DNA from: Ruegeria marisrubri
GTDB taxonomy: Bacteria > Pseudomonadota > Alphaproteobacteria > Rhodobacterales > Rhodobacteraceae
NCBI RefSeq assembly: GCF_001507595.1
Contig: NZ_LQBQ01000001.1
Span: forward strand, 186,001-250,000
DNA: 64,000 nt
Reading direction: 5' to 3'
Below the pieces are notes generated by a model that was not told where the DNA came from, searched no databases, and worked only from the letters and a program-made list of their open reading frames with translations. The position numbers and the translations under genes are program-made. Below, in pieces: positions 1,655 through 27,353 of the stretch. Position 1 is the stretch's first letter; each line of letters begins with the position of its first letter.

Positions 1655-3112
1655 TCAGCGCCGGCAGGGCTCTTCCGCCAGAGACAGGATCAGGTCCAGA
1701 TCCATGTGCCGTTCGAGGTGATCGGCAAGCGCGTCCAGCGCATTTTCCACGCCATCATCATACGCTGTCGTCGAGGCGACCCCCAGGCTCGCCAGGTAGC
1801 TGGCTCGAAACGGATCCGACGTGAACAGGCCATGCAGATAGCTGCCACGGATGCGCCCGTCTGCGCTTGCCGCGCCCTCGGGGCGTCCGTCGATCTCCAG
1901 CCAGGCGCGCGCGCAGTCGGGGCCTTCGGTGCGGCCCATGTGGATCTCGTAGCCCGACACCGGCTCGCGGCCGGGCAGGGCGGTCGCGTGGCGCAGCGTG
2001 ACCTGCTTTTCACCCGCCATGACCGTCGAGACATCCAGCAGGCCCAGCCCGTCCACCTTGCCGGGTTTTCCGTCCACGCCCTCGGGGTCCGAGATCGTTT
2101 TCCCAAGCATCTGGTAACCACCGCACAGGCCCAGAACGTGCCCGCCGCGTCGCACATGGGCATAGAGGTCGATATCCCAGCCCTGCGCCCGGAAAAAGGT
2201 CAGATCCCCGATGGTGGACTTGCTGCCCGGCAGCAGGACCAGATCCGCGTCGCCCGGCAGGGGACGTCCGGCGGCAACGATCTCGACGCTGATACCGGGT
2301 TCGGCGGCCAGCGGGTCGAGGTCGTCGAAATTCGCCATCCGTTCCAGTTGCGGCACGACGACCTTGCATGCACCGCCGGTATGCGAGCGAATGTCCATCA
2401 TGTCCTCGGCGGGCAGCTTCCACGCGTCGTTGAACCACGGCACGACGCCAAGGCAGGGCCAGCCGGTGCGCAAGGCGATGTCGTCGCGGCCTTCGTCGAA
2501 CAGGGACACGTCGCCCTTGAAGCGGTTGATGGCAAAGCCGCGAATGCGGGCGAGGTCGGCGGGGTCCAATACGGCCTGCGTTCCGACGATCTGCGCGATG
2601 ACGCCGCCGCGATGAATGTCACCGACCAGAACCACCGGCACACCCGCCGCGCAGGCAAAGCCCATATTCGCGATGTCGCCCTTGCGCAGATTGGTCTCGG
2701 CCGGGCTGCCCGCGCCTTCGACCAGCACCAGATCGGCATCCGCGCAAAGCCGGTCGAAGCTTTCCAGCGCCGCGCCCAGGAGTTTCGATTTGTCCTTGCG
2801 GTAGTCGCCGGCCCTCATCGTGCCAGCGCGGTGGCCTTGAACGATGATCTGCGCGCCGGTGTCGGTTTCGGGCTTGAGCAGGATCGGGTTCATGTCGGTA
2901 TGACTCGGGCGTCTGGCGGCCCGCGCCTGCAGCGCCTGCGCACGTCCGATCTCGCCGCCGTTTTCCGTCACGGCGGCGTTGTTCGACATGTTCTGCGGCT
3001 TGAACGGGGCAACCCGCAGGCCGCGCCGCGTGTAGGCGCGCGCAAGCCCTGCGACCAGAATCGATTTTCCGACATTGCTGCCGGTGCCCTGAATCATGAT
3101 GGCGCGCGCCAT
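1655..3112 (-). CDS. cobQ: Cobyric acid synthase
   Basis: A 485-residue enzyme of cobalamin synthesis that uses glutamine and ATP to amidate four carboxyl groups of adenosylcobyrinic a,c-diamide. The N-terminal P-loop-like GTGSNVGKS (residues 9-17) with FKPQNMSNN belongs to the dethiobiotin-synthetase-like ATPase domain. A class-I glutamine amidotransferase domain follows, with its nucleophile cysteine in GLCGGYQM around residue 330. I chose the ATG at 3112 because an AGGAGGA ribosome-binding site lies just upstream and the protein then starts MARAIMIQG as in other CobQ proteins; longer starts add an unrelated tail. No other cob gene and no full cobalamin riboswitch is visible nearby. Full length and secure. 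Confidence 0.96.
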
Positions 3113-3233
3113 GGACTTCCTCCTGCTTTCGCGCGCAGATGACCCGATTTGCACTTGGATGGAAAGTCCCCGACGGTCCGATTTGATCGCGAAACCGACA
3201 TGGAACGGGCCATTGCAACGTCATGCGGGCAAC

Positions 3234-3269
3234 AAAAAAAGCGCGCCGCCAAACGGGACGCGCCTTTTT
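3234..3269 (-). terminator. Rho-independent terminator after the DUF6280 gene
   Basis: Read on the minus strand, an A-rich arm followed by GGCGCG pairs with CGCGC and a run of seven T. It lies 19 bases past the stop of the DUF6280-like gene and separates it from cobQ. Confidence 0.7.
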
Positions 3270-3287
3270 CAGAGGTTGGAAACGGTG

Positions 3288-3608
3288 TCAGGCCGCTTCG
3301 GCCTGCTGCGCAGCGTTGCGGCGCTCGCTTTCCTCGCGCGACAGCGCAACCGAGGTCCGCACACCGCGGCCCACGAATTCCATCAGGCCCTGAACGACAC
3401 GCTCGTTCGGGTCGATACCGGCACAGGTCAGCACTTCGCGGCCGTCGCGCGAGCGTGCCCAACGGGCGATCTGTTCGGGGCCGTTGCCGTATTTCTTGTC
3501 ATCGGCAATGGCGTCATCCAGCGCGGCCAGTACGACAGCCGCAAAAAGCTTACGAGCGCGGTTGCCCTGCTCGTTGTTATAGGCGGTGCCGTCAACGAAA
3601 TCTCTCAT
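3288..3608 (-). CDS. Conserved DUF6280-like small protein
   Basis: A 106-residue soluble protein of unknown function starting MRDFVDGTAYNNEQGN. I recognise it as a conserved roseobacter/Rhodobacter family (DUF6280-like). It is helical, with no signal peptide or membrane segment; the N-terminal half is neutral and the end is Arg/Glu-rich. The ATG at 3608 was chosen because AAGGAAG lies 7 bases upstream and conservation begins here; the frame stays open further upstream but encodes nothing family-like. The gene is divergent from efp across 219 bases and ends in its own terminator, so it is probably monocistronic. Confidence 0.72.
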   Translation of the reverse strand: MRDFVDGTAYNNEQGNRARKLFAAVVLAALDDAIADDKKYGNGPEQIARWARSRDGREVLTCAGIDPNERVVQGLMEFVGRGVRTSVALSREESERRNAAQQAEAA

Positions 3609-19559: not shown

Positions 19560-20471
19560 ATGCCGCTTTCTCCCGAGCAACGAGCCGAGATCGAGGCTCA
19601 GCGTGCGCAGTCGCAGCCGACGCGCCGTGTCGTCGCGCCGGGAATGGAGGAGCATCTGTACACCGCCTATCCGGTTCTCGATCACGGTTTCGTCCGGGTA
19701 ATCGACTATATGGGCGACGACGCCGCGATCTGTCAGGCGGCGCGGGTCTCTTACGGAAAGGGCACCAAGTCGGTGCAGAATGACGAGGGGCTGATCCGCT
19801 ACCTGATGCGGCACTGGCACTCGACCCCGTTCGAGATGTGCGAGATCAAGCTGCACGTCAAACTGCCGGTCTTCGTTGCCCGCCAGTGGATCCGCCACCG
19901 CACCGCCAACGTGAACGAGTATTCCGCGCGCTATTCCATCCTCGATCGCGAGTTCTACATCCCGGCGCCCGAGCATGTGGCGGCGCAGTCCGAGGTCAAC
20001 AACCAGGGCCGCGGCGCGACGTTGCAGGGGGAAGAGGCGGCGCGGGTGCTGGACATCCTCAAGGCCGACAGCGCCCGCTGCTATGACAATTACGAGGCGA
20101 TGATCAGCCAGGAGGGCCAGCAGGGGCTGGCGCGCGAGTTGGCGCGGATGAACCTGCCCGCCAACATCTACACGCAGTGGTACTGGAAGGTGGACCTGCA
20201 CAACCTGTTCCACTTCCTGCGTCTGCGCGCCGATGCCCATGCGCAATACGAGATCCGGGTTTACGCCGAAACGATCTGCGACATCGTGGCGGACTGGGTG
20301 CCGTTTGCCTACAAGGCGTTCGAGGACTACCGCCTTGGCGCGGTGAACCTGTCAGCGCAGATGGTCGATGCGCTGCGGCGGATGCTCAAGGGGGAAGAGG
20401 TCACGCAGGAAAGCTCGGGCCTGTCGGCGCGCGAATGGCGGGAGTTCGAGGCGATCATCCGCGAGGGGTGA
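19560..20471 (+). CDS. thyX: Flavin-dependent thymidylate synthase
   Basis: A 303-residue ThyX that methylates dUMP to dTMP with FAD and NADPH, releasing tetrahydrofolate. The signature [14 protein letters not shown] (112-125) fits the RHR-x7-S-x-R motif. Downstream residues that hold dUMP and FAD ([18 protein letters not shown]) are present. The ATG at 19560 has GGAAAGG in front; an in-frame start 16 codons upstream lacks conservation. Probably the sole thymidylate synthase, as in many alphaproteobacteria, but thyA could lie elsewhere. Confidence 0.96.
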
Positions 20472-20494
20472 GCCCGAACGCGACTAAATGCAAT

Positions 20495-20519
20495 CGGTGG
20501 CCGGAACGTTCGGCCACCG
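20495..20519. terminator. Hairpin between thyX and the cold-shock gene
   Basis: CGGTGGCCG and CGGCCACCG form a perfect 9-bp stem with a 7-base loop between the convergent ends of thyX and the cold-shock gene. ATCAGATTTTT follows on the plus side, making it a reasonable thyX terminator; the T content on the minus side is weaker. Confidence 0.65.
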
Positions 20520-20554
20520 ATCAGATTTTTCATCTGTACTGGACGCAGTCGTCT

Positions 20555-20761
20555 TTACAACGTTTTCAAATCCCCGGCCATCTGCCGGCCGTCACGTCCG
20601 TCCTGAAGCTCGTACGAGACTTTCTGGTTGTCAGCGAGTCCGGTCAGGCCGGATCTTTCTACGGCCGAGATATGAACAAACACATCTTTGCCCCCCTCGT
20701 CGGGCGCAATAAAACCATAGCCTTTGGTCGTATTAAACCATTTCACGGTGCCGGTTGGCAT
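20555..20761 (-). CDS. Cold-shock domain protein
   Basis: A 68-residue single cold-shock domain with both RNA-binding motifs: KGYGFI (13-18) and DVFVH (26-30). Such proteins melt RNA structure and act as chaperones or antiterminators. The ATG has GAAGGAGA in front. The transcribed leader probably runs into the 211-base gap up to the divergent ArsC-like gene and contains a small hairpin (CCCCAA / TTGGGG at 20791-20808) about 30 bases before the start, a place where csp leaders often regulate translation. Confidence 0.93.
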   Translation of the reverse strand: MPTGTVKWFNTTKGYGFIAPDEGGKDVFVHISAVERSGLTGLADNQKVSYELQDGRDGRQMAGDLKTL

Positions 20762-20972
20762 TTCCCGTGTCTCCTTCTACTTGCACGTTGCCCCAATAAT
20801 CGTTGGGGTAGCGATCGACGAAGGCCCACGAAAAGCCGAGCGGCATGATGCAACTCGGCCTGGATGGCGGGTTTCGTCTTTTTCACAATTGCACGGTAAA
20901 GTAAAAAATCAAGGATAACGCGCGGCAAAGCCGGGAAATGCCGGTTTTTCTGCAACCATCGAGGGAGTGCTC

Positions 20973-21290
20973 ATGCGCCTTTTTGGCCTGAAAACCTGTG
21001 ACACATGCCGAAAGGCGTTGAAGTCTCTGCCGGAGGCCGAGTTCGTGGACGTCCGATCGGACGGCGTGCCGGAAGAGGTGATGCAGCGCGCCCTTCGCCT
21101 GTTCGGGCAGGCTCTGCTCAACACCCGCTCCACGACCTGGCGCGGTCTGGACCCGGCCGAGAGGGAGCGGTCGCCGCTCGAGCTTCTGGCTGAAAACCCG
21201 ACCTTGATGAAGCGGCCCCTGATCGAAAGCGAAGGGGAACTCTACCTGGGCTGGACCGGTGAAACCCGCGCCGCCCTTGGCGTTTCATGA
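20973..21290 (+). CDS. ArsC/Spx-family thioredoxin-like protein
   Basis: A 105-residue protein of the ArsC/YffB branch, with the thioredoxin-fold motif C9-D-T-C12 and the conserved KRPLIE segment near residue 82 that carries the anion-binding arginine. True arsenate reductases have a single catalytic cysteine after a longer motif; the CxxC and the absence of arsenic genes nearby make arsenate reduction unproven. I chose the ATG at 20973, with GAGGGAG upstream; a GTG two codons earlier is possible. Divergent from the cold-shock gene. Confidence 0.85.
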   Translation: MRLFGLKTCDTCRKALKSLPEAEFVDVRSDGVPEEVMQRALRLFGQALLNTRSTTWRGLDPAERERSPLELLAENPTLMKRPLIESEGELYLGWTGETRAALGVS

Positions 21291-21331
21291 TCCAGTGACT
21301 ATCTGCGGGTCAACGCAGACGGAGAGAAAGA

Positions 21332-21700
21332 ATGCGAAACGCCGCCATGGTTCTGGGTGTCATTGCCGGTCTGATCGGGATGATCGTCGGGTTTTTCGGT
21401 TACGGCTATGTCGAGTTTGTGAACACTTTCGGTGAGATCGAGGGGATCGCCGAGCAGGTCGAGAATGCGGATTTGATCCAGTTGGTGTCCATCCTGGCGC
21501 CGATGCTGGCCATTGCCGGTGGCGCCATTTCTCATGCGCGGGCGTTGTGGGGCGGGGCCATGCTGATCGCTTCGGCTGCGGGCATGTATTACGCGTTCGG
21601 TTTCAACGTGTTCACGATGTTCCCGATTGCATTCGCCGCAACCGGCGGGGTGCTTGGGCTGGCGGCCGGCAAGCCGGACCAGCCCAAGGCGCATTTCTGA
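21332..21700 (+). CDS. Small four-helix membrane protein
   Basis: A 122-residue membrane protein with about four hydrophobic helices (roughly 5-27, 47-66, 72-88 and 92-112) and small loops. Glycine- and alanine-rich, no charged catalytic residues, short Lys-containing tail. Family not recognised beyond conserved small membrane proteins of roseobacters. The ATG has GGAGAGAAAG upstream and follows the ArsC-like gene by 41 bases, so it is likely the second gene of that unit. Function unknown. Confidence 0.72.
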   Translation: MRNAAMVLGVIAGLIGMIVGFFGYGYVEFVNTFGEIEGIAEQVENADLIQLVSILAPMLAIAGGAISHARALWGGAMLIASAAGMYYAFGFNVFTMFPIAFAATGGVLGLAAGKPDQPKAHF

Positions 21701-21702
21701 TC

Positions 21703-22221
21703 TCAGGGGAGGCGCAGGATCCGGTCGAGAGAGATCGGCCCGGCACCTTTCACCACGATCACCAGCAGCAGGAAGGTCCACATCACCCGCTGGTCCAGCA
21801 GCGTGTAGGTGTTGTCGAACAGGCTGCCCAGGGCGACGCCGTGTCCGGTCACGTCAACCAGTGTCTGGACCCAGACGAAGCCGATCATGGCCAGCGCGGC
21901 AAGCCGGGTGAGCAGGCCGACGAGGATCAGGGCCGGCAGGGCGAACTCGGCGATGGTGCCGAAGAAAATCACGATGCGCTGGAAGAATGTCATCTGGGTG
22001 ACGTCGTACAGGACGGCCTCGGCGGCCTTGGGAAAGATCTGGCCGAAGGCGCCTGCGGAGGGCGAGAAGATGGAGCCGTCGATCTTCAGCATCGCCGAGT
22101 TCCAGTAATAGAACAGAAGAACCGCCGCGAATACCAGCCGCGCAAGGGTGGGGGTCAGGATCTCGGAACTGCGGTCGAGTTTTTCCGCGACGCTGTTGTG
22201 CAGGGCGATCAGTGCGGTCAT
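21703..22221 (-). CDS. DoxX family membrane protein (bufferin operon)
   Basis: A 172-residue DoxX-family protein with four membrane helices (roughly 28-44, 82-104, 108-128 and 146-163). DoxX proteins often end operons that code bufferin-type peptides and their maturation enzymes, where they are suspected to act in membrane redox chemistry or metal handling. Its ATG overlaps the stop of the bufC-like gene by four bases, which ties it to that operon. It converges tightly on the small membrane-protein gene (2 bases between stops). Confidence 0.85.
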   Translation of the reverse strand: MTALIALHNSVAEKLDRSSEILTPTLARLVFAAVLLFYYWNSAMLKIDGSIFSPSAGAFGQIFPKAAEAVLYDVTQMTFFQRIVIFFGTIAEFALPALILVGLLTRLAALAMIGFVWVQTLVDVTGHGVALGSLFDNTYTLLDQRVMWTFLLLVIVVKGAGPISLDRILRLP

Positions 22222-22979
22222 GGTTCCAGCCTTTCGGTAGTCACGGAGGTAATTGCGTTGCCCCGCAGCAGCAGGGCGAGTGTCGCGCCGAGGTCGAACC
22301 CCTCGGCTGCGGCAAGAGCGGTTTCATGGGCCTGCCCAAGGGGCTGGCCGGCCTGCATGGCCTGTATCCAATCGGCGCCGCCGGCCGGCAGCAGCTGGGG
22401 CTCGGGATCGAATTCCGCGCGGGTGATCAGTACGTCCTGCGCGCCCGGCTGCGGCTTCGGGGCGTCGTCCTGGGTATTGAACAGCCAGATGGCATGGATC
22501 GGCCACGGCGAGCGAACCAGTTCCATCGAAGGGGCGAAGGTCAGCCGCGCGTTTACCAGCTCTTCCGGGGGCAGGGCCAGCGCCTCGGGCGCGATGGGGG
22601 TGCTGTCGGCGGCGTGGTAGGAGCGGCGCAGGGCCAGTTCCAGCCGCGCCACGTCGGGCAGGTAGCCGAGATGGGCCAGTTGTTCGGTGTTTTGCAGGAA
22701 ATCGGGGAAGGCCTCGCCATAATGCATCATCAGCGGCGATGCGGGCGGGTGCTGGCGCAGGAAGATGCCCGCAAGCCCGTCCATGTTCTGCTTGCCCAGC
22801 AGCTTGGCGATCACCGGAAAGGCCAGGTGCATCGCCTCGGTCAGCGACACGGCGACATTGTTGCGATAGACGCTGAAGCGGCGGCCCGCCGGGCGGGCCT
22901 GCCCGTCGCTCAGGCCAAGCGGGATCGGTTGCGCTGCATCCAGCAACGCATCGTGGAATGTCGACTGCGATGTGGTCAT
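22218..22979 (-). CDS. bufC: BufC/HvfC-type partner protein (DUF2063)
   Basis: A 253-residue DUF2063 protein. The N-terminal domain shows the family pattern FHDALLDA ... RRFSVYRNNVAVSLTEAM ... AFPVIAKLLG, then MMHYGEAFPDFL. In characterised systems this protein partners the DUF692 enzyme and helps deliver the peptide precursor. The ATG at 22979 overlaps the stop of the DUF692 gene by four bases. The C-terminal part is less conserved. Role inferred from operon and family. Confidence 0.86.
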   Translation of the reverse strand: MTTSQSTFHDALLDAAQPIPLGLSDGQARPAGRRFSVYRNNVAVSLTEAMHLAFPVIAKLLGKQNMDGLAGIFLRQHPPASPLMMHYGEAFPDFLQNTEQLAHLGYLPDVARLELALRRSYHAADSTPIAPEALALPPEELVNARLTFAPSMELVRSPWPIHAIWLFNTQDDAPKPQPGAQDVLITRAEFDPEPQLLPAGGADWIQAMQAGQPLGQAHETALAAAEGFDLGATLALLLRGNAITSVTTERLEP

Positions 22980-23833
22980 GCGGGTATTCGCTCCAGTGCT
23001 ACCTGCGCGCGAGTGGCCTCTTGGCGCAGGGTTGGCCAGTCTGGCACGTCCGTGTCCCACTCGATCAGGACGGGCTTGGGGCCGGTCCGTTCGAGAACAT
23101 AGTCCAGCAGGGTCCAGACCGGGTCGACGACCTCGCGCCCGTGGCTGTCGATCAGCAGCGGGCGGCCGTGGTCGTCCTCGTCCTCGTCATGCCCGCCCAG
23201 ATGGATTTCCTCCACTTTATCAAGCGGGTAGGCATCGATGTAGCCTTGCGGTGAGAAGTCCAGATTGGTGGCCGAGACAAAGACGTTGTTCACGTCCAGC
23301 AACATGCCGCAGCCGGTGCGGCGCGAAATCTCGCGCAGGAAATCGGGCTCGGACCATGTGCTTTCGTCAAAGGCGAGGTAGCTGGAGGGGTTTTCCAGCA
23401 GCATCCGCCGGCCGAGCGTATCCTGCACCTGATCCATGTGCTCGCAGATCCGCGCCAGCGTGGCGTCGGTATAGGGCAGGGGCAGAAGGTCGTTGAGGAA
23501 ATGGCCGTCATGGGTGGACCATGCCAGATGTTCCGAGAAGCTGGCCGGGTTCAACCAGCCGACCAGATGCTGAAGGCGCGCAAGGTGCTCGGGGTCGAGC
23601 TGTGCTTCGCCGCCGATCGACAACCCCACGCCATGAACCGAGATCGGGAAGCGCTCGGACAGGTGGCGCAGCTGCGCCAAGGGGCGTCCGCCGTCGCCCA
23701 TGTAGTTCTCGGCATGGATTTCCAGCCAGCCGACGGGGCCGGGGTCGGCAAGGATATCCGAATAGTGCTGGGGCTTGTAGCCAACCCCCGGCGCTGCCGG
23801 CAGGTCATTCGGGCCTCGTGCACGATCCAACAT
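22976..23833 (-). CDS. bufB: MNIO-family peptide-modifying enzyme (DUF692)
   Basis: A 285-residue TIM-barrel enzyme of the DUF692 / multinuclear non-heme iron oxidative (MNIO) family, which includes MbnB, TglH and BufB. Ligand-type motifs are visible: EIHAENYMGDGG, SVHGVGLSIGG, SEHLAW, LLENPSSYLAF, LLDVNNVFVSA and EIHLGGHDE. These enzymes convert cysteines of a small precursor into heterocycles that bind metal. The operon order precursor-DUF692-DUF2063-DoxX identifies it as BufB-like. GGAGGATGT precedes the ATG at 23833. Confidence 0.93.
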   Translation of the reverse strand: MLDRARGPNDLPAAPGVGYKPQHYSDILADPGPVGWLEIHAENYMGDGGRPLAQLRHLSERFPISVHGVGLSIGGEAQLDPEHLARLQHLVGWLNPASFSEHLAWSTHDGHFLNDLLPLPYTDATLARICEHMDQVQDTLGRRMLLENPSSYLAFDESTWSEPDFLREISRRTGCGMLLDVNNVFVSATNLDFSPQGYIDAYPLDKVEEIHLGGHDEDEDDHGRPLLIDSHGREVVDPVWTLLDYVLERTGPKPVLIEWDTDVPDWPTLRQEATRAQVALERIPA

Positions 23834-23903
23834 CAGACATCCTCCTCAAGAGACGAAAACGGGGCGTGAACGGAGTGTCCGCGCCCCGAATGTCCAAGAT
23901 TGA

Positions 23904-24206
23904 TTATGCCGGCAGGTCGCGTTCGAGCGGTTCGAGAGACCCCTTGCGCGGGGTTCCGTCCGCCTGTGCCGGCAGCTCGATGCTTTCGCAGGTACCCGCG
24001 TCGACCAGTGTCCAGGCATTGCCTTGGTAGTCCACCGTCGAAGTGCCGGCGCAGGTGGTACCGGGGCCGGCGGCACAGTCATTCTGCCCGGCCTTGGAAA
24101 TGCCATAGCACTTCTCTTTGGCTTGCGCGCTTGCGGTGGTTGCGGTTCCGGCGATCGCTGCGGCGACGGCGCTGGCGATGACCAGGGTTTTTGCGGTGTT
24201 CGACAT
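23904..24206 (-). CDS. bufA: Bufferin-type precursor peptide (DUF2282)
   Basis: A 100-residue exported precursor. It has a signal peptide (about residues 1-28, ending TASA-QA), then a mature part with four cysteines: C33 (KEKCYG), C44 (NDCAAG), C52 (TTCAG) and C73 (GTCES). This is the DUF2282 / BufA1 pattern, in which MNIO enzymes turn cysteines into metal-binding (copper) thiooxazoles. The C-terminal tail is acidic/proline-containing. AAGGATT precedes the ATG. First gene of the operon, with 221 bases of upstream DNA carrying inverted repeats. Metal identity is inferred. Confidence 0.9.
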
Positions 24207-24307
24207 CTCGGGAATCCTTTTGGTGATTGCGTATGTCTTGCTGTGACACTGACAAGTTAGCGAATGGGAGCCGCCCGTTGAATTCACGAGGATGTGCCTC
24301 ACAGGCC

Positions 24308-24334
24308 TGTCAGGGTTCGTCATAGACCCTGACA
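24308..24334. promoter_or_regulatory. Perfect 9-bp inverted repeat upstream of bufA
   Basis: TGTCAGGGT and ACCCTGACA are exactly complementary across a 9-base spacer, about 100 bases upstream of the bufA start. The adjoining sequence ACAGGCCTGT (24301-24310) is itself a palindrome. No T-run follows, so an operator for a metal- or stress-responsive regulator is more likely than a terminator (inference). Confidence 0.45.
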
Positions 24335-24376
24335 TGGTAACACATTGGTTTTGTGATGAAAATTTTTTTCATGTTT

Positions 24377-24407
24377 CAATCCGGCCCCCGCCGTGAGGGC
24401 CGGATTG
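24377..24407 (-). terminator. Hairpin downstream of thrS
   Basis: An 11-bp perfect stem (CAATCCGGCCC / GGGCCGGATTG) with a 9-base loop sits 21 bases after the thrS stop. On the minus strand it is followed by A-rich then TTTT sequence, an imperfect terminator. Confidence 0.55.
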
Positions 24408-24427
24408 ATGTTTTTCGGGGCCGAATG

Positions 24428-26386
24428 TTACAGCAGATCCGGCGGGGTGGCGGCCTGGGCCAGCTCTTTTGTTACATCGTCAAGCGACTGAACCGAGGTC
24501 TGTTTTTCGCCCAGGCGACGGACGCTGACGGTGCGCTCCTCGACCTCGCGGTTGCCGACGGCCAGAATGACCGGCACCTTGCCGACCGAGTGTTCGCGCA
24601 CCTTGTAGTTGATCTTTTCATTGCGCGTATCGGCCTCGGCCCGCACGCCCTCGGCCTTGAGGGCGTCCACCACCTCGTGCACGTAATCGTCGGCCTCGGA
24701 GGTGATCGACGCCACGACGACCTGCCGGGGCGCCAGCCAGAAGGGCAGCTTGCCGGCGTGTTCCTCGATCAGGATGCCGATGAAGCGTTCGAACGAGCCC
24801 AGCGTCGCACGGTGCAGCATGACCGGGCGGTGCTTGGCGCCGTCGGCGCCGATATAGGTGGCGTCCAGCCGTTCGGGCAGCACGAAATCGACCTGGAAGG
24901 TGCCGCATTGCCAGTCGCGCCCGATGGCGTCGGTCAGCACGAATTCCAGTTTCGGACCATAGAAGGCGCCTTCGCCCGGGTTCAGCTCGGGCTCGATCCC
25001 GGCGGCGCGGGTGGCCGACAGCAGCGCCTCTTCGGCCTTGTCCCAGACCTCGTCCGAGCCGGCGCGGGTTTCGGGGCGGTCCGAGAATTTCACCGAGAAG
25101 TTCTCGAAGCCCAGATCCTTGTAGATCACGCTGAGGAAGCGGATGAACTCGGCGGTCTCGGATTCGATCTGATCCTCGGTCGCGAAGATATGCGCGTCGT
25201 CCTGCGTGAAGCCGCGCACGCGCATGATGCCGTGCAGCGCGCCCGAGGGTTCATAACGGTTGCACGAGCCGAACTCGGCCATGCGCAGCGGCAGGTCGCG
25301 GTAGGATTTCAGGCCCTGCTTGAAGATTTCCACGTGACAGGGGCAGTTCATCGGCTTGAGCGCGTTGATCGCCTTTTCGCGGGCGTGTTCTTCGTCGACT
25401 TCGACGATGAACATGTTTTCCTGGTACTTGTCCCAGTGGCCCGAGCGTTCCCACAGCTTGCGGTCCACCACCTGCGGGGTGTTGACCTCGACATAGCCGC
25501 CGCGGCGCTGCTGGCGGCGCATGTAGTCCTGCAACTGGGTGTAGATCGTCCAGCCGTTGGGGTGCCAGAAGATCTGGCCCGGGGCCTCTTCCTGCATGTG
25601 GAACAGGTCCATCTCCTTGCCCAGCTTGCGGTGGTCGCGCTTGGCGGCCTCTTCCAGCATGTGCAGATAGGCCTTGAGCTTTTCCTTGCCGGTGAAGGCC
25701 ACGCCATAGATGCGCTGCAGCATCGGGCGCGAGCTGTCGCCGCGCCAGTAGGCGCCGGCGATGGACATCAGCTTGAAGGCATCGCCGGGCAGCTGGCCGG
25801 TGTGCTGAAGGTGCGGGCCGCGGCACAGGTCCTGCCAATGGCCGTGCCAGTACATGCGCACCGGCTCGTCGCCGGGGATCGCCTCGACCAGCTCGACCTT
25901 GTAGGGTTCGTTGTTGGCCTTGTAGAACGCGATGGCGCGCTCGCGGTCCCAGATCTCGGTGGTCACGGGATCGCGCTTGTTGATGATCTCTTTCATCTTT
26001 TTCTCGATGAGGCCGAGATCCTCGGGCGTGAAGGGTTCTTCGCGGTCGAAGTCGTAATACCAGCCGTTCTCGATGACCGGGCCGATGGTGACCTTGGTGG
26101 CCGGCCAGATTTCCTGCACCGCGCGGGCCATGACATGGGCGAAGTCGTGGCGGATCAGTTCGTTGGCCTGGGCCTCGTCCTTCATCGTGTGGATGGCGAT
26201 TTCGGCATCCTGTTCGATGGGCCATTGCAGGTCCCAGTGCTGGCCGTTGACGGTGGCCGAGATGGCCTTTTTCGCCAGCGAGGTGGAGATGTCGGCAGCG
26301 ACCTGCGCCGGCGTGACGCCTGCCGCGTAGGATCGGGAATTGCCATCGGGGAAGGTGAGAGAGACGGATTTCGTATCCAGGGCCAT
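24428..26386 (-). CDS. thrS: Threonyl-tRNA synthetase
   Basis: A 652-residue class-II aminoacyl-tRNA synthetase that charges tRNA-Thr and edits Ser. Domains in order: TGS (about 6-64), the editing domain with [11 protein letters not shown] carrying H80 and H84, the catalytic core with motif 1, PMNCPCH (zinc-binding Cys), motif 2 ([10 protein letters not shown]), motif 3 near [12 protein letters not shown], and the anticodon-binding domain from about 555. Full length. Flanked upstream by copy 2 of the intergenic repeat and downstream by a hairpin. Confidence 0.97.
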
Positions 26387-26488
26387 GATCTGGCTCTCCT
26401 CGTCGGTTTGGCGCCCACAGAACGCCCGGTTGCGGGTTATGGTGTCGGGCCCGTGTGGCAGGTGGTGGTGTCTGTGTCAAGGGTGGGA

Positions 26489-26539
26489 GCGAGGGGCGCT
26501 GCCCCTCGCGCACCCCGGAATATTTGGGGCCAGATGAAG
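26489..26539 (+). repeat. Intergenic repeat, copy 2 (hairpin plus CCAGATGAAG motif)
   Basis: GCGAGGGGC-GCT-GCCCCTCGC followed by CACCCCGGAATATTT and CCAGATGAAG. The hairpin is identical to copy 1 and the rest differs at few positions, although the two lie 15 kb apart. It fills most of the gap between thrS and the divergent hydrolase gene. Confidence 0.8.
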
Positions 26540-26603
26540 AGGGGGCGGGAATTGCACTTGGGCGCGGCGCGTGCATGATGCTGGAAAAGCAAATGAGGGT
26601 TTC

Positions 26604-27353
26604 ATGGCAGCGACGACATTTCTGGAAACGCCGCAGGGGCGGCGGCTGGCCTATCACAAGAGCGAAGGGGCGGGGTCCACGGTTGTTTTCCTGGGTGGGC
26701 TCAAGTCGGACATGGAGGGCACCAAGGCGGTGCATCTGGAGGACTGGGCGCGCGCGCGTGGCCAGGCCTATCTGCGGTTCGACTATTCCGGGCATGGGGA
26801 AAGTTCCGGCCGGTTCGAGGATGGATGCATCGGGGACTGGCACGAGGATACGGTTGCGGCGGTTTCCGCGTTGACCGAGGGGCCGTTGATCGTGGTGGGT
26901 TCGTCCATGGGCGGGTGGCAGGCGTTGCTGCTGGCGCGGGCGATGCCCGAGCGGATCGCGGGGATGGTCACGATCGCGGCGGCGCCGGATTTCACCGAAG
27001 ACGGCTATTGGGCCTCGTTCACCGATGCGCAGAAGGAGGCGCTTGAGACGGTCGGGCATGTGGAGCTGCCCTCGGACTACATGGAGCCCTACATCATCAC
27101 CAAGCGGATGATCGAGGATGGCCGGACGCGGCTGGTGTTGCGGTCGCCCTTGAACCTGCCGTTTCCGGTGCGCTTCCTTCAGGGCACCGCCGATACGGCG
27201 GTGTCAACCGAGACGGCGTTGCGTCTGCTGGAGCACGCGCAGGGCAGCGACATGCACCTGTTGCTGGTCAAGGATGCCGATCACCGGTTTTCGGACGGGC
27301 CTTGCCTGGGCCTGATCGAACGCGCCGTTCTGGAAGTGATGGGCGCGGCCTGA
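26604..27353 (+). CDS. Alpha/beta hydrolase (ABHD10-like)
   Basis: A 249-residue soluble alpha/beta hydrolase. Nucleophile elbow GSSMGG (99-104) with Ser101; LRFDYSGHGESSG (58-70) forms the preceding strand and loop; the catalytic His is in DADHRFSDG near the C-terminus and the acid probably in GTADTAVS. Layout and motifs resemble ABHD10-type thioesterases/esterases. The ATG at 26604 follows GAGGG. Its TGA overlaps the next gene's ATG (TGATG), so translation is coupled. Substrate unknown. Confidence 0.83.
   Translation: MAATTFLETPQGRRLAYHKSEGAGSTVVFLGGLKSDMEGTKAVHLEDWARARGQAYLRFDYSGHGESSGRFEDGCIGDWHEDTVAAVSALTEGPLIVVGSSMGGWQALLLARAMPERIAGMVTIAAAPDFTEDGYWASFTDAQKEALETVGHVELPSDYMEPYIITKRMIEDGRTRLVLRSPLNLPFPVRFLQGTADTAVSTETALRLLEHAQGSDMHLLLVKDADHRFSDGPCLGLIERAVLEVMGAA

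Follow-up and report, generated by a model that had tools for sequence, protein, structure and literature searches.

A 64,000-nucleotide stretch of the Ruegeria marisrubri genome (hereafter the window; RefSeq assembly GCF_001507595.1, contig NZ_LQBQ01000001.1, positions 186,001 to 250,000, forward strand) carries a bufferin operon. Its family matches support the assignment as a canonical Buf1 operon, and an earlier note on this DNA appears to have interpreted the locus correctly. While the peptide system itself is already known and its operon unremarkable, the control is less usual. For Caulobacter, the extracytoplasmic function (ECF) factor sigma-F, together with the antagonist NrsF, is reported to run both buf operons by way of GTAACC-N16-CGAA (PMC3511200, PMC8224329). 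Upstream of the Ruegeria operon lies a 32-bp element in which two dyads stand in tandem; it is conserved in sequence and position among relatives, occurs at about one strong site per genome, and does not co-occur with NrsF in the sample compared. Taken as one joint reading, it is likely that the operon produces a Buf1 bufferin and that its control is not of the sigma-F type, being exerted through this element by an activator encoded elsewhere.

The operon and its products

Open reading frame (ORF) calling of the window placed four minus-strand ORFs at 21703-24206, for a precursor, an MNIO, a partner and a DoxX-like protein:

23904..24206, minus strand: bufA-like precursor, DUF2282, 100 amino acids (Pfam DUF2282, E 2.4e-25)
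24126..24206, minus strand: predicted Sec signal peptide of the precursor, residues 1-27, ending in ASA (read by eye)
22976..23833, minus strand: bufB-like MNIO (DUF692) maturase, 285 amino acids (Pfam MbnB_TglH_ChrH, E 3.4e-104; NF050167)
22218..22979, minus strand: bufC-like partner, DUF2063 plus RRE-type domain, PME-type 1, 253 amino acids (Pfam DUF2063, E 4.6e-24)
21703..22221, minus strand: DoxX-like membrane protein, 172 amino acids (DoxX matches of aligned family members)

The gap between bufA and bufB is 70 bp, and the three downstream genes are coupled through ATGA overlaps at 22976-22979 (bufB/bufC) and 22218-22221 (bufC/doxX). The earlier note had described both overlaps and the order DUF2282, DUF692 (MNIO), DUF2063, DoxX, and the ORF positions and family matches agree with it. 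The genome (4.01 Mb in 39 contigs, completeness 99.99%) contains one match each to the MNIO, DUF2063 and DUF2282 families, that is, one MNIO and one precursor. The sample of relatives comprised the best 80 by MNIO of 562 confirmed (MNIO identity 74-87%), named mostly Ruegeria, Leisingera and other roseobacters. Each of the 80 had a match to every one of the four proteins, one locus (L062) being truncated by a contig end. The conservation of gene content and of the cysteine spacing described below is far beyond chance. MNIO/DUF2063 clusters in Ruegeria had already been noted (PMC12538549).

The precursor carries cysteines at residues 33, 44, 52 and 73 of 100, exactly where the earlier note had read them, and four cysteines with the spacing x10/x7/x20 were found in 80/80 precursors (the window and 79 relatives, L062 left out). 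Its start codon matches that of the 79 full-length homologues; a longer in-frame ORF begins at 24335. By eye, the N-terminus consists of a lysine, a hydrophobic core and ASA, and an AxA motif falls within residues 19-33 in 78 of the 80 precursors, a weak test in so alanine-rich a sequence. The EGKCG repeats of oxazolins were not found in the precursor sequence. A buf operon with two tandem DUF2282 precursors was seen elsewhere in the family (L218, genome G007).

The MNIO scored 375.9 bits against the NCBIfam model NF050167 (MNIO_BufB; cut-off 310) and stayed under the cut-off of each of the HvfB, ApyH, MbnB and ChrH models, with 227.4 bits for HvfB (cut-off 360) and 58.1 bits for MbnB (cut-off 325). 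Structure modelling of the DUF692 enzyme, which the earlier note had proposed as a check, returned the MNIO fold: a model built from 36 sequences (mean predicted local distance difference test score, pLDDT, 90.7) matched 3bww best in Foldseek (E 7.1e-22), followed by TglH and MbnB, the MbnB chains at E 2.7e-15 to 1.6e-16. Residues H67, H102, E147, D180, N182, N183, H211, H215, D229, H231, E258 and D260 are invariant in the 36/36 aligned sequences and are putative metal ligands. Motif comparison would equate D229, H231 and either N182 or N183 with the site-3 residues D242, H244 and N175, respectively, reported for HvfB (PMC13419390).

The model of the partner (pLDDT 95.0) matched the folds of TglI (E 1.9e-7) and of the DUF2063 plus RRE protein 3dee (E 2.4e-4); a phmmer search of the partner against the PDB gave no match. 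The fusion of DUF2063 to an RRE-type domain is described as the PME-type 1 architecture in PMC12452194. The DoxX call of the earlier note stood for the family and fell short for the single protein: DoxX was matched at E<=0.01 by 27/27 aligned family members, the window protein included, whereas that protein alone matched nothing in Pfam at E<=0.001 and scored 19.1 bits against the DoxX cut-off of 23.6. Precursor family, cysteine pattern, BufB-type MNIO, partner, DoxX-like protein and gene order all agree with the bufferin-type operon that the earlier note had proposed.

In Buf1 systems, the central cysteines are reported to be modified and the outer two to form a disulfide, and bufferins to sequester copper in the periplasm through cysteine-derived thiooxazoles (PMC12452194). 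For fontiphorin, four hydrogens are reported lost per 5-thiooxazole (PMC12668002), and a title cited in PMC13419390 reports a Sec signal that also serves as leader. By analogy with these systems, a BufB-BufC complex would bind the BufA precursor through its Sec signal peptide, as in the family, and oxidise the central Cys44 and Cys52 to 5-thiooxazoles. The modified peptide would be exported via Sec and cut after about Ala27, a Cys33-Cys73 disulfide would close it, and the mature peptide would be kept in the periplasm as a copper-sequestering agent. For the window peptide cut after Ala27, the calculated monoisotopic mass is 7481.52 when reduced and unmodified and 7471.44 with two thiooxazoles and the disulfide, a difference of 10 H. 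The chemistry, export and copper binding of the peptide are all inferred from such relatives. The DoxX-like protein, a core but non-universal Buf1 component, may have an auxiliary, perhaps redox, role.

Structure and distribution of the upstream element

Four features were mapped in the region between the precursor and the upstream gene, thrS:

24281..24312, minus strand: conserved element, two tandem ~14-bp dyads with boxes at 24299-24312 and 24284-24297 (upstream-region alignment, profile)
24254..24259, minus strand: TAACTT, a -10-like hexamer whose spacing from the element is conserved (TAnnnT box)
24316..24341, minus strand: GTTACC-N16-CGAA, a resemblance to the sigma-F promoter of Caulobacter that is attributed to chance
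24376..24408, minus strand: 12-bp perfect inverted repeat in the thrS-operon gap, possible thrS terminator (repeat search; a terminator scan misses it)

The element is 32 bp long, with a consensus of about TnACGCnnnCGTGAnnCACGGnCyCGTGAaT. Its dyads are centred at positions 13.5, 21 and 28.5 with a direct-repeat offset of 15, giving two tandem palindromes, roughly TnACGnnnnCGTnA. A profile matched 79/81 upstream regions (78/80 relatives and the window), the profile having been fitted to these same sequences; of the two exceptions, L073 lacks the element and L062 is cut by the contig end. A 22-bp core had no mismatch in 26 of the 81 real upstream regions and four in the window, compared with 7-12 at best in shuffled sequences (one shuffle each).

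Specificity was assessed with a profile, R1, built from 30 dereplicated element sites and searched against 149 genomes from the family, with E-values that are rough. At E<=1e-3, R1 gave 52 matches in 50 genomes, and 50 of these (49 genomes) lay upstream of a DUF2282 domain; the two exceptions were in G049, inside an ORF of 275 amino acids, and in G063, between bufA and the MNIO gene. At E<=0.05, there were 70 matches in 67 genomes, upstream of DUF2282 in 61 genomes and always 153-226 bp from the domain, the remainder being the G063 match and six matches elsewhere. A 32-mer identical to one of the 79 fitted sites occurred in only 9 of the 45 matched loci compared (of 67 genomes), the Ruegeria marisrubri genome included; most matched loci are therefore not copies of the fitted set. 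The plain element pattern gave 12 matches in the 149 genomes, 11 of them at bufA, versus none for the reversed control; the only one away from buf (L106, genome G020) is inside a long ORF. Outside the family, R1 was tried on 29 DUF2282 loci of the same class (the best 29 of 100 DUF2282 genomes, own excluded) and matched none of them. The Ruegeria marisrubri genome has no second strong R1 site, its next four sites having E 0.08-2.6 and overlapping ORFs.

In G063, the element (L269, 3304-3336) follows an apparent bufA terminator and precedes the MNIO gene, the operon being apparently split into two units, and a degenerate copy was seen by eye before bufA as well.

Among the 149 genomes, DUF2282 was found in 106 and NrsF over its cut-off in 21. 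The element (E<=0.05) was present in 62 of the 106 DUF2282 genomes, and NrsF in 0 of these 62 versus 16 of the 44 others (Fisher p 1.1e-7, inflated by relatedness). Judged by coordinates, NrsF and the precursor lie no more than about 3 kb apart in 12 of the 16. Nine loci with a nearby NrsF have GTAAC-type/CGAA promoters, at one mismatch in seven and two mismatches in two, with a spacer of 16 in 8/9; among ten DUF2282 loci without a nearby NrsF, one has such a promoter at one mismatch. On an MNIO tree with 94 rows from the family and 12 from the outgroup, the three states (element, NrsF, neither) required 13 changes, with low support on many branches. The tree leaves out 11 element-bearing DUF2282 genomes, as well as one of the 16 NrsF genomes (G130) and two of 14 outgroup loci that failed the match filter.

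Sigma-F, activator and other readings of the control

The operon is probably not under sigma-F/NrsF control as in Caulobacter. NrsF (PF06532) had no match in the Ruegeria marisrubri genome, whereas the Caulobacter control was positive. The notion that a sigma-F-type ECF factor still drives the operon draws on the site at 24316-24341, which fits GTWACC-N16-CGAA exactly, is one letter off the published GTAACC-N16-CGAA (PMC3511200) and begins 135 bp before the start codon; such a match arises in 4 of 100 shuffles of the window. That site was dropped as a promoter candidate, being unconserved: an exact match was found upstream of the operon in 0/80 relatives, and a single-mismatch site with a spacer of 16 or 17 in 7/80, mostly elsewhere in the upstream region. 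The genome contains 8 GTWACC-N16-CGAA sites versus 13 for the reversed control. The site was taken as chance because of this low count relative to the control and the lack of an exact match in the 80 relatives, which leaves sigma-F control of the operon hardly credible.

The promoter geometry would suit an activator. By weighted count over 79 sites, 70% have a TAnnnT box at position 60 or 61 of the element, and the inferred transcription start at about 24247, some 7 nt past the box, puts the centres of the dyads near -44 and -59. A poor -35 (TTCAAC) adjoins the element. Dyads beside RNA polymerase in this spacing have the geometry expected of an activator. An activator encoded elsewhere would bind the two tandem dyads of the 32-bp element next to a weak -35 and a -10-like box; the element would be the predicted site of a regulator whose only strong site is the buf promoter, and copper would be the signal. 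The conserved element has apparently taken the place of the Caulobacter switch. It is a little less likely than not that the roseobacter bufferin operon lost sigma-F/NrsF control and gained a dedicated activator that binds the two tandem dyads as its sole target per genome.

Several observations weigh against this picture. A consensus sigma-70 scan calls no promoter and does not pick up the TAACTT hexamer, and the -35 is poor. A looser element pattern found 13 further sites at 2-3 mismatches in the genome versus one for the reversed control; all 13 are in stop-free stretches of 209-1009 codons, which is not decisive, as the stretch of the buf site itself is 154. No regulator gene was recognised beside the operon, in flanks that were not annotated systematically. 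The element and NrsF states need as few as three changes on the quick MNIO tree and are not phylogenetically independent. The split between them is incomplete because, of the 44 of 106 DUF2282 genomes without a strong element, 28 are also without NrsF over the cut-off. Weak element matches (E 0.004-0.083) sit at the expected location in five of the 28; in one of these, G129, there is in addition a stop-containing NrsF match below the cut-off. Shuffled sequences equal the nine NrsF-type promoters in a fraction of 0.025-0.58, locus by locus.

The element might itself be the promoter, either of the MerR type, with the central dyad inside a spacer of 19-20 bp, or as the -35 and -10 of an uncharacterised ECF factor; the dyad centred at position 21 between TnACG and CGTGAAT does resemble MerR geometry. 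This is unlikely, however, as many inner positions are conserved as strongly as the ends, GTGAAT fits poorly as the presumed -10, a separate TAnnnT box stands downstream at a fixed distance, and the strong second genomic site that an autoregulated ECF or MerR gene would predict is missing. It is less probable still, and indeed very unlikely, that the element is conserved for another reason, for example as an attenuator RNA or as part of the thrS 3' end. Its short inverted repeats and its place between thrS and bufA in most loci would suit such a role, but its letters are conserved at fixed positions, the thrS-side inverted repeat is some 65 bp away, the element of G063 lies between bufA and the MNIO gene, and no thrS was found in the element-covering loci of G070 and G097 (it lies further upstream in G097; none was seen within about 6.8 kb in G070). 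As to the signal, related operons are reported to respond to gold, chromate and cadmium (PMC5413113, PMC3511200), and DoxX hints at other stresses (PMC12452194), so that the peptide might serve against other metals, gold, oxidative or sulfur stress and not copper. Copper is the more probable signal and this alternative an improbable one, given that bufferins are reported to sequester copper (PMC12452194) and that the Caulobacter sigF mutant is reported to be copper-sensitive (PMC8224329).

Candidates for the activator were sought near the operon. None of the recurring immediate neighbours of the operon (thrS upstream; an unassigned small protein, an ArsC-family protein and a cold-shock protein downstream) resembles a dedicated metal regulator. 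In three element-bearing loci whose first stretch had shown no thrS, ORFs were classed by eye as GntR-like and multicopper-oxidase-like (G070), MarR-like (G035) and WYL/YafY-like (G097); they were rejected, as none recurs among the three loci.

Neighbourhood, related systems and implications

The gene thrS lies upstream of the operon in 79/80 relatives, and a small protein, an ArsC-family protein and a cold-shock protein recur on the downstream side. In the window, the ArsC-family gene (20967-21290) and the gene of a 122-amino-acid protein (21332-21700, plus strand) form a stable neighbourhood beside the operon. The 122-amino-acid protein, without a Pfam match, is encoded convergently to doxX, and in many relatives it has a match on the downstream side of the operon. 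The 5' leader of bufA (window 24207-24258, minus strand; about TTTGTCAnTGTCACAAGCAGACATA) is conserved in aligned Ruegeria-like relatives, and an Rfam search of window positions 20000-27000 gave no match. In G070 (L274), the ORF at 1846-3402, some 3.4 kb ahead of the buf operon with its element, looks by eye like a multicopper oxidase. A roseobacter-like buf locus with 79% MNIO identity is carried by a contig titled Nocardioides marinus (L081); the assembly is probably mislabelled or mixed.

The closest counterpart is the Buf1 operon CCNA_03363-03366 of Caulobacter vibrioides, with which the window operon shares the gene order A-B-C-D of DUF2282 precursor, MNIO, DUF2063 partner and DoxX. There, two buf operons under sigma-F are described as sharing one regulon with a sulfoxide-reductase operon, whereas here there is a single operon, the element before it is a different one that lacks a further strong site in the genome, and NrsF has no match. 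The gold-induced genes (GIG) operons of Cupriavidus and Legionella are reported to combine the same four gene families (PMC5413113), but belong to other taxa, and control in Legionella may involve RpoS, according to the same source. Oxazolins and fontiphorin (HvfABC-type) also have an MNIO and a DUF2063 partner, along with a Sec-type precursor, a Sec signal being predicted here; the window operon differs from oxazolins in its lack of EGKCG repeats and its sub-threshold HvfB score. The MNIO fold is common to methanobactin biosynthesis (MbnABC) as well, but the MbnB score is far below its cut-off, the partner is a DUF2063 protein and not MbnC, and the window precursor has a signal-like N-terminus.

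Among the matches listed in the open PMC literature, there was no description of a bufferin regulator or of the element in Rhodobacterales, nor of how roseobacters sense copper for bufferin production. With essentially a single strong site in each genome, the element would offer a bait for the sensor, and may serve as a marker for the regulatory rewiring of a metal-stress operon.

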